Below are positions 25,931-30,213 of a stretch of 34,313 bases of DNA, piece by piece; position 1 is the stretch's first letter; each line of letters starts with the position of its first letter. The translations under genes were made by a program, and so were the position numbers. The notes beneath the pieces are model-generated. The model was not told where the DNA came from, made no database searches, and saw only the letters and a program-made list of their open reading frames with translations. Origin of the DNA: an uncultured Bacteroidia bacterium (GTDB lineage: Bacteria; Bacteroidota; Bacteroidia; Bacteroidales; Prolixibacteraceae); NCBI GenBank assembly GCA_903834845.1, contig CAILKW010000259.1:1-34313 (forward strand). Reading direction: 5' to 3'.

Positions 25931-26046
25931 CCATTGGAGTGGTCTTTTGACCCTCGAAGTAGTTTATTACGGGTCTTTTGACCCTCGAAGTGGTATTATC
26001 CCCAAGTGGTAATTAAGAGGTCTTTTAACCCTCGAAGTGGTTTATT
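25931..26046. repeat. Hairpin-containing direct-repeat cluster
   Basis: Three near-identical 28-base units lie at 25941-25968, 25972-25999 and 26019-26046. Each opens with GGTCTTTTGACC (a GGTC/GACC stem with a TTTT loop; copy 3 has A for the G after the loop) followed by CTCGAAGTGGT and a TTTATT-like end. Partial copies without the hairpin half lie at about 25931-25943 (TTGGAGTGGT) and 26000-26015 (CCCCAAGTGGTAATTA). Copies 1 and 2 start 31 bases apart, and copies 2 and 3 start 47 apart. The cluster fills the gap between the stop of the aldolase-CBS gene and the nitroreductase start. Confidence 0.85.
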
Positions 26047-26048
26047 CT

Positions 26049-27074
26049 TTAATTAATTAAATCAAGTTTGACCATGTCTTGTATATCAAGCATTCCGATA
26101 GGAAGGCCGTTTTCAGTTACAATGATATTATCCACTTGATTTGCATTAAAAATATCTGCCGCTTTTTGTAAGACTTCATCACCTTCAATCGAAATTGGGT
26201 TCGCTGTCATACACTCTCCAACAGATGCTGTGTGGATATGTTCTCCAAGATTACGCATCTGACGGCGCAAATCTCCATCGGTAAAAATACCGGCAAGCTT
26301 ACCATCTTTAGTAACAACTGAAACTGCTCCCATTCCCGAGTCAGTCATTTTCAGAAGCGCGTCAAGCACCTTGCAATCCATATCAACTATAGGGTTAGCT
26401 TCCGAAATGACTCTCTTTACTTTGATTGTCATTAGTCGGGTGTGTTGAAAAAACTGGTCAGTACCCAACTTTGTGAGATGGTTATCTGCAAGTTTTTTCA
26501 TTATACTCCATGGAAGGGTAATATTATGTGCCCCAAGTGTAAGAGCATCCTTTATATGTTCAGGATACCTAACTGATGAAAACATAACTTTGCAATTGTA
26601 TTTGTATTCTTTGATTACATCTACAATTTGTTTAACTAAACCAAGCGCGTCGTGACCCTGATCCTGCATTCTGCCAACCAGAACACAAACATAGTTTGCC
26701 CCTGCTGTTAATGCCATATAAGCTTGCTGGATATTATATACAAGGTGTAAATTGATTAAAAAACCTTCATCATGTAGCTTTTTACAAGCTTTCACTCCTT
26801 CGAAATTGACAGGTATCTTGAAAACCGTTTTTTTCTTGTCGAGGCCAAGGTTGAGCAAACGATGAGCTTCGGCTACAATTTGCTCGGAAGTTTCACCTAA
26901 TGCCTCAATCATCAGCACAGGAACCATTTTAGACAATTTAACGATTGCACCATCAATATCAGTTATACCGTTTTTGTGCATAAATGTAGGTGTTGTTGTA
27001 ACACCATCAATGATCCCCAGTTTCAGGGCTTCTTCAATTTCAGCAAGATTAGCGGAGTCAAGAAAAAATTCCAT
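26049..27074 (-). CDS. Transaldolase/fructose-6-phosphate-aldolase domain fused to a KdsD-like CBS pair
   Basis: Residues 1-215 align with E. coli FsaA. Asp6, the Schiff-base lysine (K86 in TVFKIPVNFEG, FsaA K85) and the phosphate-binding Arg135 and Ser167 (R134, S166) are kept. Asn28 is Thr28, Thr109 is His110, Tyr131 is Leu132, and Gln59 is Glu57, the residue type used by true transaldolases at that place. Residues 226-341 form two CBS motifs with GIFTDGDLRR, the hallmark of arabinose-5-phosphate isomerase KdsD. The gene is the last of an operon with kdsA-, kdnB- and kdnA-like genes, 20 bases after kdsA. I infer an enzyme supplying A5P or a related phosphosugar to the KdsA-like synthase, with CBS-mediated control. 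It is not the ordinary pentose-phosphate transaldolase. Confidence 0.88.
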   Translation of the reverse strand: MEFFLDSANLAEIEEALKLGIIDGVTTTPTFMHKNGITDIDGAIVKLSKMVPVLMIEALGETSEQIVAEAHRLLNLGLDKKKTVFKIPVNFEGVKACKKLHDEGFLINLHLVYNIQQAYMALTAGANYVCVLVGRMQDQGHDALGLVKQIVDVIKEYKYNCKVMFSSVRYPEHIKDALTLGAHNITLPWSIMKKLADNHLTKLGTDQFFQHTRLMTIKVKRVISEANPIVDMDCKVLDALLKMTDSGMGAVSVVTKDGKLAGIFTDGDLRRQMRNLGEHIHTASVGECMTANPISIEGDEVLQKAADIFNANQVDNIIVTENGLPIGMLDIQDMVKLDLIN

Positions 27075-27935: not shown

Positions 27936-29012
27936 TTACATTTTCATTAGCAAACCACGAAGTTTATCCCGAGTAATAATTTTTTCCCATTCGGGACCAC
28001 AAACATGTTGCCACATGAAAACAAGAGTAAGAGTTACATCTATCATTTTATCAATTTCTTCAGGTGAACAGTTGGCTGTAACTCCCTGAGGAATAGCAAT
28101 ATTATTTACTCTCATCATTTCTTTGAACTCCTTAACTCCTTCGGGGTAGAATTCCTCAAGTTGATTGAAAACTACACAGTTGCCAACACCATGATGTATT
28201 CCTGTAACAGTTGCCAAACCATAGGAAATAGCATGGCACGCACCAACTTCCGAATAAGTTAAGGAAAGACCGCCCAGATATGACGCAATCATCAGTTTTT
28301 CCTCGTTTACAGGAGAGCGGCTATCGTTACTTAAGTAAATATCCCTGCAAAGACGAAGAGACTCAGCTCCAAGCGCGTCTCCCATAACTGTCTTACGGAA
28401 ACCATTTGCAGCTTCGATATTATGTATATAACAATCCATTGCAGTATAGAACCGTTGTGGTTCAGGAACAGAAGTAATCAACTCAGGATCAATCACTAAT
28501 TGATCAGCAGGGGTAAAGTTACCTTTAATTCCCAGTTTTTTCACTGGCCCTGTTAATACTGTTGTCATCGAAACTTCTGCACCTGTACCTGAAATTGTAG
28601 GAATCACGGTGCAATGTACCCCTTTGTTTTTGATCAGGTCGAGTCCTTGATATAGTGATGATGAACCTTCGTTTGTAAACATCAGACGGATTGCCTTAGC
28701 ATAGTCCATGACACTGCCACCCCCAATACCAACTACCGAAACAGGAAGATTGGCACTAAGACTTTTGACTTCCGCAACAATGGCATCCACTGTTTTCGTT
28801 TTGGGTTCCTCGGTAATATCAATAATTTTCAGAATATCATGAGGATGAACAGGAATCCGCTTCATGAAATCTTTACCTTCAAAATATTCATCAACAAGAA
28901 AAAGGACATAAGAATCCTTTTCAATACGTAATTCACCGAGTACGTCATCTAATTGGTCAAAGCTGTTTCGACCATAAAGAATCCTTCCAATTGCCTTTAA
29001 ATTTCTGAACAT
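27936..29012 (-). CDS. kdnB: KdnB-like 3-deoxy-D-manno-octulosonate 8-oxidase (iron-type alcohol dehydrogenase)
   Basis: This 358-residue group III metal-dependent alcohol dehydrogenase has the nucleotide-binding GIGGGSVMDYAKA (96-107) and the ISGTGAEVSMT loop (140-150). Its metal ligands are visible as Asp193 and His197 (MDCYIHN), His260 (GACHAISYG) and His273/His274 (IHHGVGN). Iron-type dehydrogenases act on many alcohols, but the KdnA-like aminotransferase 7 bases upstream and the KdsA-like gene 10 bases downstream point strongly to KdnB, which oxidises C8 of Kdo so that the partner can aminate it. Placement as KdnB rests on context plus general likeness; no specific KdnB signature is known to me. 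Confidence 0.8.
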   Translation of the reverse strand: MFRNLKAIGRILYGRNSFDQLDDVLGELRIEKDSYVLFLVDEYFEGKDFMKRIPVHPHDILKIIDITEEPKTKTVDAIVAEVKSLSANLPVSVVGIGGGSVMDYAKAIRLMFTNEGSSSLYQGLDLIKNKGVHCTVIPTISGTGAEVSMTTVLTGPVKKLGIKGNFTPADQLVIDPELITSVPEPQRFYTAMDCYIHNIEAANGFRKTVMGDALGAESLRLCRDIYLSNDSRSPVNEEKLMIASYLGGLSLTYSEVGACHAISYGLATVTGIHHGVGNCVVFNQLEEFYPEGVKEFKEMMRVNNIAIPQGVTANCSPEEIDKMIDVTLTLVFMWQHVCGPEWEKIITRDKLRGLLMKM

Positions 29013-29019
29013 ATTCTAT

Positions 29020-30213
29020 TTATTTAAGTGCGTTTTTAAGTGCTGATCTTATTTTTTCAGTAAGTATATTCAACTCTTCTTCACTCCAGGTTACCATAAT
29101 TTGGGTCATCATCAACTTTTGCATAATTGCATCCGAATGAGGCACTTCCATGTTTCGATAGTCAGGAATATTATTCATCTTCATCACAGGAAGATTGTAA
29201 ATAGATTTCATTTCTTTCAAATGTCCCCATTGCCGATGAAAATGGAAATTATTTCGATACCAATATGAAGCACTTACCCCTTCTTTCTGAAATTGATCAA
29301 AAACTTTAACTGCTTTTTCGGAATCGGGTAAGAAGAAGGAAAGAAATGTGGCCGAATCTCCATCTTCGTCAGGAACAAACCTAAAGCGGATTTCGGGGAA
29401 TTCCAGCAAAACCTTTTTAAGTGCTTTCTGATGCAACCTTTGCTTTTCAATCATATATGGCAACTTACGAAGCTGTGCCAAAACTACAGCTGCTCCGAGT
29501 TCGGAACCACGGAAGTTGTATCCCAAAATCGGGTGTTGTTCAGCTCCGCGAGCATTTCCAATATGGTCGTGACCATGATCGGAATATTTATGTGCCTTTT
29601 CGTATAATTCGTCATCGTTTGTTGCTACTGCTCCTCCTTCACCGGCAGTGATAATTTTGTAAAAGTCGAAAGAAAAGGCAGACATTTGTCCAAAATTACC
29701 AAGCATCTTCCCTTTGTAACTTCCACCTAAAGCGGGAGCAGCATCTTCAATCAAAATAAGGTTGTGTTTCTTGCACACCGAAAGTATTTCGTCCATTCTG
29801 CCCATAGAGCCGAAAACCTGTATCAACAGAACAGCTTTGGTTCGTGACGTAATTGCTTTTTCTATTCCTTCAGGACTGAGGCATAAAGTTTCATCAATTT
29901 CAGCAAATACAGGGATAGCTCCTGCCATTAGAACAGCTTCAATGGGGGCAATAAATGTATAAGGAGGAACAATAACCTCATCTCCATAACCTATTCCGCA
30001 ACATGCAAGTGATAAAGAATCTGCAGCTGTTCCGCTTGCGCAAAAATGGGAGTGTTTTGCCCCAAGATAATCACTGAATTCTTGTTCGAAGGTCTTAGCT
30101 TTCCAAACTCCATTACGTTGGGAATCATGATTATAACGAAACAAAATTCCTGTTTCGAGCACATCCAAAACTTCTTTTCGTTCTTCATATCCGAAAAGTT
30201 CAGTACCTGCCAT
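29020..30213 (-). CDS. kdnA: KdnA-like 8-amino-3,8-dideoxy-manno-octulosonate aminotransferase (DegT/AHBA family)
   Basis: This PLP-dependent sugar aminotransferase of 397 residues has DEVIVPPYTFIAPIEA, IEDAAPALGGSYKG (PLP-ring Asp157), the PLP lysine K186 in SFDFYKIITAGEGGA, and a YSDHGHDHIG segment. The opening ELFGYEERKEVLDVLETG and the HDHIGNARGAEQHP stretch match what I recall of Shewanella KdnA rather than the WecE/PseC types. It would transfer an amino group from glutamate to the 8-oxo group made by KdnB, giving Kdo8N. It is the first gene of the operon; a terminator-like hairpin for the transporter gene lies upstream at 30250-30290. Confidence 0.83.
   Translation of the reverse strand: MAGTELFGYEERKEVLDVLETGILFRYNHDSQRNGVWKAKTFEQEFSDYLGAKHSHFCASGTAADSLSLACCGIGYGDEVIVPPYTFIAPIEAVLMAGAIPVFAEIDETLCLSPEGIEKAITSRTKAVLLIQVFGSMGRMDEILSVCKKHNLILIEDAAPALGGSYKGKMLGNFGQMSAFSFDFYKIITAGEGGAVATNDDELYEKAHKYSDHGHDHIGNARGAEQHPILGYNFRGSELGAAVVLAQLRKLPYMIEKQRLHQKALKKVLLEFPEIRFRFVPDEDGDSATFLSFFLPDSEKAVKVFDQFQKEGVSASYWYRNNFHFHRQWGHLKEMKSIYNLPVMKMNNIPDYRNMEVPHSDAIMQKLMMTQIMVTWSEEELNILTEKIRSALKNALK

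Follow-up and report, generated by a model that had tools for sequence, protein, structure and literature searches.

A transaldolase-type barrel fused to a KdsD-type CBS pair beside kdsA, a candidate substitute for KdsD in several Bacteroidota

The window, which is the whole stretch of 34,313 nucleotides analysed here from an uncultured Bacteroidia bacterium of the family Prolixibacteraceae, carries on its minus strand a cluster of genes in the order kdnA-kdnB-kdsA-fusion, with gaps of 7, 10, and 20 bases. At the head of this cluster is a kdnA-like aminotransferase gene (29020..30213; 397 aa), whose product has the Kdo8N transaminase 5k8b as its top match in the PDB (463.8 bits, with the next at 172.6). 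It is followed by a gene for a kdnB-like iron alcohol dehydrogenase (27936..29012; 358 aa), whose closest PDB entries are 3rf7 (385 bits), an iron alcohol dehydrogenase whose function is not given, and the Kdo 8-oxidase 5k8c (382.8 bits), the next named family reaching 78 bits. The kdsA gene (P0002; 27095..27925; 276 aa) falls in a clade that we term KdsA-II, and with 330.6 bits its product passes the TIGR01362 cut-off of 314. Last comes the fusion gene (P0001; 26049..27074), an intact open reading frame for 341 aa that is read from 27074 to 26049. A preliminary description of this DNA had placed the gene directly after a kdsA-like one and had its coordinates exactly right, though it left the minus strand unsaid. 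Between the 3' end of the fusion gene and a nitroreductase gene, we also noticed three near-copies (0-1 mismatches) of the 23-base GGTCTTTTGACCCTCGAAGTGGT at 25941-26041, a repeat for which 100 shuffles gave a mean of 0.00 matches.

The fusion protein begins with a TAL_FSA domain (PF00923) at residues 3-216 (26427..27068), as assigned by Pfam (E-value of 9.3e-38 and 130.6 bits with a gathering cut-off of 27), by alignment, and by Foldseek, and the codon of Lys86 was located by alignment at 26819-26817. From residue 220 onward, two stretches match the CBS family (PF00571; E-value of 1.5e-16), and the resulting KdsD-type pair occupies residues 220-336 (26067..26417), with the motif GIFTDGDLRR at residues 262-271. 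This two-domain make-up is far above chance, and the earlier reading of an aldolase head on a KdsD tail agrees both with Pfam and with the CBS tree described below. Against the FSA/TalC equivalog TIGR00875, the protein scores 163.8 bits, below the cut-off of 245.95, and against the KdsD/KpsF model TIGR00393 it scores 62.9 bits, below the cut-off of 203.7, with only the CBS part matched and no SIS domain. The AlphaFold2 model consists of a barrel followed by a CBS-like part (mean pLDDT of 86.6), and because its pTM is 0.57, the packing of the two domains is not trusted. A Foldseek search found the barrel to be closest to TalC-type transaldolases (1vpx; E-value of 1.8e-20), and E57, N108, and R169 are likewise of the TalC/transaldolase type rather than of the FSA type that had originally been proposed. 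In a tree of the transaldolase heads the fusions stand together (100/100), with their placement among the transaldolases flagged as a long branch. An assembly artefact joining two genes is ruled out by the 24 fusion loci and five family-level groups in which the arrangement was found; 22 of these loci show both halves, and the other two (L076 and L078) run off the end of a contig.

Against positions 153-259 of the NCBIfam kpsF/KdsD model, the CBS part gave 62.9 bits (E-value of 3.4e-17), and its top three matches in the PDB are the CBS pairs of arabinose-5-phosphate isomerases, namely 4o9k (65.5 bits), 3k2v, and 3fna. In a tree of 44 CBS pairs, 10 from fusions and 19 from KdsD proteins are set apart from 4 IMPDH and 11 other pairs by a branch with 100/98 support, so the tail does group with KdsD. 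Within this group, fusion and KdsD pairs are not cleanly split, and the pair of G445 and one KdsD sit loosely. Moreover, a profile built only from fusion CBS pairs gave 66-86 bits for KdsD and 38-64 bits for other CBS proteins. An origin of the tail from IMPDH or from a generic CBS protein is ruled out by this tree and these profile scores. As for the motif, GIFTDGDLRR had been put forward as characteristic of KdsD, and it is indeed present at residue 251 of E. coli KdsD, but the exact FTDGDLRR is rarer than that implied, being found in one of 19 KdsD proteins and in nine of ten fusions, and it is not typical of the Bacteroidota KdsD proteins compared. The pattern T[DS][GS]DLRR, on the other hand, is shared by 16/19 KdsD proteins and 10/10 fusions and occurs in 0/4 IMPDH and 0/11 other CBS proteins. 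By analogy, we would guess at CMP-Kdo feedback on the fusion's CBS pair; the ligand of 4o9k, which we take to be CMP-Kdo, was not counted as evidence.

For the active site, ten fusions representing all five groups were aligned with 21 proteins, consisting of FsaA, TalB, and 19 stand-alone relatives (two further stand-alone loci gave no usable ORF and stand outside the comparison). Here, D6, E57, K86, N108, R135, S167, and R169 are invariant in all ten fusions, and so are the replacements N28T, T109H, S/A129C, F/Y131L, D136Q, and A165S, none of which is seen in the 21 comparison proteins; N28, S/A129, T109, and F/Y131 are present in every one of the latter. In the numbering of the fusion, changed sites include Cys130 (S/A129), Gln137 (D136), and Ser166 (A165). 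The alignment thus bears out what the preliminary description had read as N28T, T109H, Y131L, K86, D6, R135, and S167, and adds S/A129C, D136Q, and A165S as invariant changes beyond these. Its Q59E, however, is no special change, Glu being the usual transaldolase residue (E96 in TalB and E in 16 of the 19 stand-alone relatives). In the excerpts of two published sources, Asp6 and Asn28 of FSA contact the donor, Asn28 and Ala129 serve the donor dihydroxyacetone (DHA), and Gln59-Thr109-Tyr131 hold the catalytic water (PMC13259622), while Ser176/Ala129 are tied to DHA preference and the acceptor phosphate is bound by two Arg and one Ser (PMC3962226). The fusions keep Glu57 and otherwise depart from the donor- and water-site set of DHA-transferring enzymes (N28, S/A129, E/Q59, T109, and F/Y131). 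Given these published roles and the kept catalytic and phosphate residues, the alignment therefore reads as one in which the lysine, the acid, and the phosphate site are retained and the pocket that takes up the CH2OH of the DHA donor has been remodelled. Such rebuilding would be expected if an aldose, with H instead of CH2OH at C1, forms the Schiff base. A route by way of octulose 8-phosphate fares poorly here and seems to us very improbable: E57, N108, and R169 are of the transaldolase type, and, according to the excerpt of PMC5854111, octulose 8-phosphates are formed by transaldolases, and octulose phosphate is formed in vitro by transketolase out of G6P and F6P. None of the ten fusions, however, retains the DHA-positioning N28 and S/A129 or two of the water-site residues, as these are assigned in the excerpts of PMC13259622 and PMC3962226.

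Named genomes were scanned with two N-terminal peptide patterns, which miss divergent fusions beginning MELYLDSA, and this gave 32 loci, made up of 24 fusions and 8 stand-alone transaldolases. These fusions come from MAGs labelled Bacteroidia, Bacteroidetes, Mariniphaga, Tangfeifania, and Prolixibacteraceae, and from two Prolixibacter species. The order kdnB-kdsA-fusion, with all three genes on the same strand, holds for all 24 loci; 23 of them also show kdnA, and in the remaining one the contig begins inside kdnB. Many of the contigs also belong to the genome sets used here and were not added to the counts. These sets comprise 61 genomes (the window genome and 60 relatives) and 21 further ones, 82 altogether. 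In the first set, 19 of the 61 genomes have the fusion, including partial cases in G011 (truncated where the contig ends), G015 (in two parts on separate contigs), and G001 (first 16 residues unmatched). An even sample of 395 genomes, all within the Bacteroidota and with at most five candidates scored per genome, gave six full-length fusions, which were that of the window and those of G206, G151, G352, and G250, from three other families of its class, and of G445, from outside the class. Five family-level groups of the phylum yielded full-length fusions, and completeness is 99-100% for the five fusion genomes that do not belong to the window's family.

Of these five genomes, all but G250 have the fusion directly next to kdsA, as does the window. 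In G151 the order is kdnA-kdnB-kdsA-fusion-HAD-kdsB, where a short additional ORF follows kdnB and 595 bases separate the fusion from the gene before it; it is kdsA-fusion-HAD in G206 and G352, and kdsB-kdsA-fusion in G445. The short ORF of G151 (L109:10899-11282; 127 aa), between kdnB and kdsA, looks PIN-toxin-like by its letters only. In G352, no KdnB match was found at an E-value of 1e-20, so kdnB is a common rather than an obligatory companion. The preliminary description had named two sequence findings that would speak against it, an absence of co-occurrence with kdsA or kdn genes and a CBS tail unrelated to KdsD, and neither came about. A role specific to Kdo8N is ruled out, for G352 has the fusion without a KdnB match, and both G093 and G309 have KdnB together with KdsD. 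Because of G352, gene content ties the fusion to the trunk of Kdo-type synthesis rather than to the Kdo8N/amination branch. KdsC-like HAD proteins of 223-238 aa are encoded in KdsA-II operons (L107:9563-10252, L108:9671-10342, L109:7667-8365, and L127:4011-4727), and their scores of 34-52 bits are far under the KdsC cut-off of 107. Since no KdsC above this cut-off was found in G352 and G151, the HAD protein is probably their Kdo8P phosphatase.

The formation of D-arabinose 5-phosphate (A5P) is the first step to Kdo, which most Gram-negative outer membranes require, and to our knowledge bacteria rely for it on the SIS isomerase KdsD and related enzymes. We scored as KdsD-grade any match that covers the SIS part of TIGR00393 with at least 158 bits, the lower end of the main KdsD group. 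Among the 82 genomes, such a match is present in one of the 24 with the fusion and in 51 of the 54 that have kdsA and no fusion; the corresponding Fisher p of 1.7e-15 treats genomes as independent and ignores relatedness, and the honest unit for this pattern is the five family-level groups. By set, KdsD-grade matches occur in 1/19 (G023) and 0/5 fusion genomes and in 36/39 and 15/15 kdsA-positive genomes without the fusion. The 16 controls of the second set were drawn from the same families or class and picked before KdsD was examined, and one of them, G101, has neither a kdsA above the cut-off nor KdsD. The kdsA-positive genomes with neither fusion nor KdsD are G032, G046, and G047 (91, 91, and 61% complete). 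G003 (68% complete) is without fusion, kdsA, kdnB, and KdsD, and G044 and G048 have no kdsA above the cut-off. The one fusion genome with KdsD is G023, taken to be Prolixibacter denitrificans, where the fusion and a single-SIS KdsD occur along with a canonical kdsA gene and a second one of the KdsA-II type, on spans L112, L113, and L114; its keeping KdsD and canonical KdsA beside fusion and KdsA-II could mean two different products. The preliminary description had proposed a Schiff-base aldolase in the place of KdsD, and comparative genomics lends this idea strong support, 23 of 24 fusion genomes being without KdsD. The fusion is real and recurrent, and the genomic evidence that it displaces KdsD is strong.

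A search for SIS proteins covered 16 genomes, with the matches then read or scanned with profiles; frames of GlmS length (except in G352), some of MurQ length, and the 277-280 aa frames of G004, G007, and G024 were assigned by length only. In the fusion genomes, these proteins are GlmS, MurQ, GmhA, an AgaS-type protein and a GlmS-like half (G012), a bifunctional phosphoglucose/phosphomannose isomerase (G206), and an RpiR regulator (G445). G010 and G012 encode a 350-aa GlmS-like double-SIS protein that scores about 39 bits to the SIS part of TIGR00393 and 134-136 bits to GlmS. No substitute A5P isomerase stands out among the SIS proteins, the one caveat being a long-form GmhA-like protein of 213-219 aa. 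It occurs in all five KdsD-less Prolixibacteraceae searched (G000, G004, G007, G012, and G024), shares 62-74% identity with the window genome's copy and 32-40% with the GmhA of other genomes, and was not found by the SIS search in G019, G023, and G028 of the same family. Because its five genomes have no other GmhA, it may be their heptose isomerase; alternatively, it could be an A5P isomerase of the Prolixibacteraceae lineage. The window genome's copy (G000:C6; L005:1414-2067; 217 aa) has 150 bits to the gmhA model, with a cut-off of 209, and adjoins a ROK-type kinase, as judged by its letters. G004 and G007 are genomes of 2.8-2.9 Mb from the window's genus.

These observations bear on the notion that the fusion serves as a housekeeping transaldolase under regulation, with A5P coming from another SIS enzyme, GmhA-like or GlmS; we regard this notion as improbable. 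The occurrence of the long form in 5/5 KdsD-less Prolixibacteraceae and 0/3 other members of the family searched would suit it, and a eukaryotic GFAT is described in the excerpt of PMC11301363 as isomerising Ru5P to A5P and rescuing an E. coli mutant. However, the other four fusion lineages have GmhA of the ordinary kind, as do KdsD-containing genomes, and no GlmS SIS match was found at an E-value of 0.01 in G004 and G007, where the search turned up just the GmhA-like protein and a frame of 277 aa. Moreover, a plain transaldolase fits neither the invariant donor- and water-site losses nor the place beside kdsA.

The KdsA-II proteins of the fusion genomes are divergent, being 66-91% identical to the window protein, with the compared canonical KdsA at 40-51%, and in a tree of 29 sequences they group as one clade (support of 100/100; branch length of 1.34). 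In the alignment, KdsA-II has KDNRSS for KANRS/T and MQT/S for RQT, and also KH for KK or KR ahead of the GQF-like motif. As these positions presumably lie near the acceptor (A5P) site, the acceptor of KdsA-II may differ from A5P. From this comes the reading that the fusion makes another aldose or aldose phosphate, that KdsA-II turns it into a different 3-deoxy-ulosonate, and that KdsD has become dispensable with the replacement of Kdo itself. The separate long-branch clade, its changed A5P-site residues, the divergent KdsC-like HAD that accompanies KdsA-II in several operons, and the retention of both systems in P. denitrificans all fit such a reading, yet we hold it to be unlikely. The single-contig genome G309 has no fusion, and KdsA-II is its only kdsA match at an E-value of 1e-20; the operon reads kdnA-kdnB-kdsA-II-HAD-kdsB, which is the order of G151 minus the fusion between kdsA and HAD and minus the short ORF after kdnB, and an ordinary KdsD is encoded elsewhere in the genome. 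KdsA-II therefore probably takes the product of KdsD. In addition, KdnB relatives occur alike with canonical KdsA and KdsD (G093), with KdsA-II and KdsD (G309), and with KdsA-II and the fusion, and the three operon kdsB proteins scanned exceed the TIGR00466 cut-off. In the KdsA tree, the G309 protein is sister (91/86) to that of G250, a genome of the same family with the fusion and without KdsD, and the same KdsA thus seems to be fed by KdsD in the one and by the fusion in the other. This is our best argument for A5P as the likely product of the fusion.

From the genomic context and the residues, we infer with reasonable confidence that the fusion is a non-orthologous replacement of KdsD which makes A5P, its chemistry passing through a Lys86 Schiff base on an aldose. 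The transaldolase-fold head would supply A5P to KdsA-II. An aldopentose phosphate, its phosphate held by Arg135/Ser167/Arg169, would be bound at C1 by Lys86 as a Schiff base. Retro-aldol cleavage or deprotonation at C2 would then leave the enamine of glycolaldehyde on Lys86 and glyceraldehyde 3-phosphate in the site, and their rejoining with the opposite configuration at C2 would release A5P. The net result would be the epimerisation of ribose 5-phosphate (R5P) at C2 without free glycolaldehyde, and the KdsD-type CBS pair would probably exert feedback control of the same kind as in KdsD. Stated in full, namely that the fusion is an R5P-to-A5P 2-epimerase with a lysine-bound C1 Schiff base, that it displaced KdsD in several Bacteroidota, and that it shares its CBS control with KdsD, this proposal is a tentative one.

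In a close variant of the same explanation, the enamine would arise from free glycolaldehyde as donor and add directly to glyceraldehyde 3-phosphate as acceptor in one aldol addition, which we find possible and somewhat more doubtful. Free glycolaldehyde is a reactive minor metabolite, on which the whole outer membrane would then depend, and among the cluster genes examined, none was recognised as forming glycolaldehyde. Moreover, the affinity of FsaA for glycolaldehyde was judged too low for ethylene glycol flux in E. coli in the excerpt of PMC9947464. Yet FsaA and FsaB reportedly prefer glycolaldehyde as donor and yield A5P with GAP (excerpts of PMC6298115 and PMC9947464), and the replacement of Asn28 and Ala129, the DHA site in the excerpt of PMC13259622, in all ten fusions suits a donor that lacks the CH2OH of DHA. 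From the same excerpts (PMC9947464 and PMC6298115), TalB F178Y reportedly makes both A5P and R5P, which suggests by analogy that one transaldolase-type site may reach both C2 epimers, and the fusion is altered at the equivalent position (L132). For this reason, C2 epimerisation of R5P is rated slightly above the addition of free glycolaldehyde to glyceraldehyde 3-phosphate, with the octulose 8-phosphate route well below both. Isomerase chemistry of the lysine on Ru5P was set aside by reasoning only, as the imine nitrogen would end on the product.

Should the replacement hold true, A5P formation would have a second, unrelated catalytic solution with a sensor tail of the KdsD kind, and one sensor domain would be common to two catalytic scaffolds. 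It would also account for the fusion genomes that have kdsA but no kdsD, and synthetic pathways, for which FsaA or TalB F178Y serve at present, would gain a natural A5P-forming enzyme of the aldolase fold. In titles and the opening parts of abstracts among the records listed, with subscription papers outside this scope, neither a transaldolase-CBS fusion nor, apart from the engineered use of FsaA/TalB, a bacterial source of A5P without SIS came up, both being weak negatives.

Among known systems, the TalC/MipB-type transaldolases (1vpx from T. maritima, 3r8r from B. subtilis, and 3s0c from T. acidophilum) have the same fold as the fusion at 31-34% identity, and D6, E57, K86, N108, R135, S167, and R169 are common to the fusion and its stand-alone TalC-type relatives. 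The fusion differs from this type in its CBS tail and in having T28, H110, C130, L132, Q137, and S166 for N, T, S, F, D, and A. FsaA of E. coli belongs to the same superfamily and uses the same lysine, but it is a stand-alone protein with Q59, Y131, A129, and L107, where the CBS-tailed fusion has E, L, C, and N; A5P synthesis is not known as a physiological role of FsaA. KdnA and KdnB of Shewanella (5k8b and 5k8c), which serve 8-amino-Kdo, both have clear relatives in the window cluster, whereas the fusion is also found without a KdnB match (G352). Closest in genomic role, as a partner of kdsA, and in its CBS group is the KdsD/GutQ/KpsF family (SIS and CBS pair; TIGR00393). Here, however, the catalytic half is an SIS domain, while that of the fusion is a transaldolase barrel with a Schiff-base lysine, and the chemistry of the fusion must therefore differ from that of KdsD.
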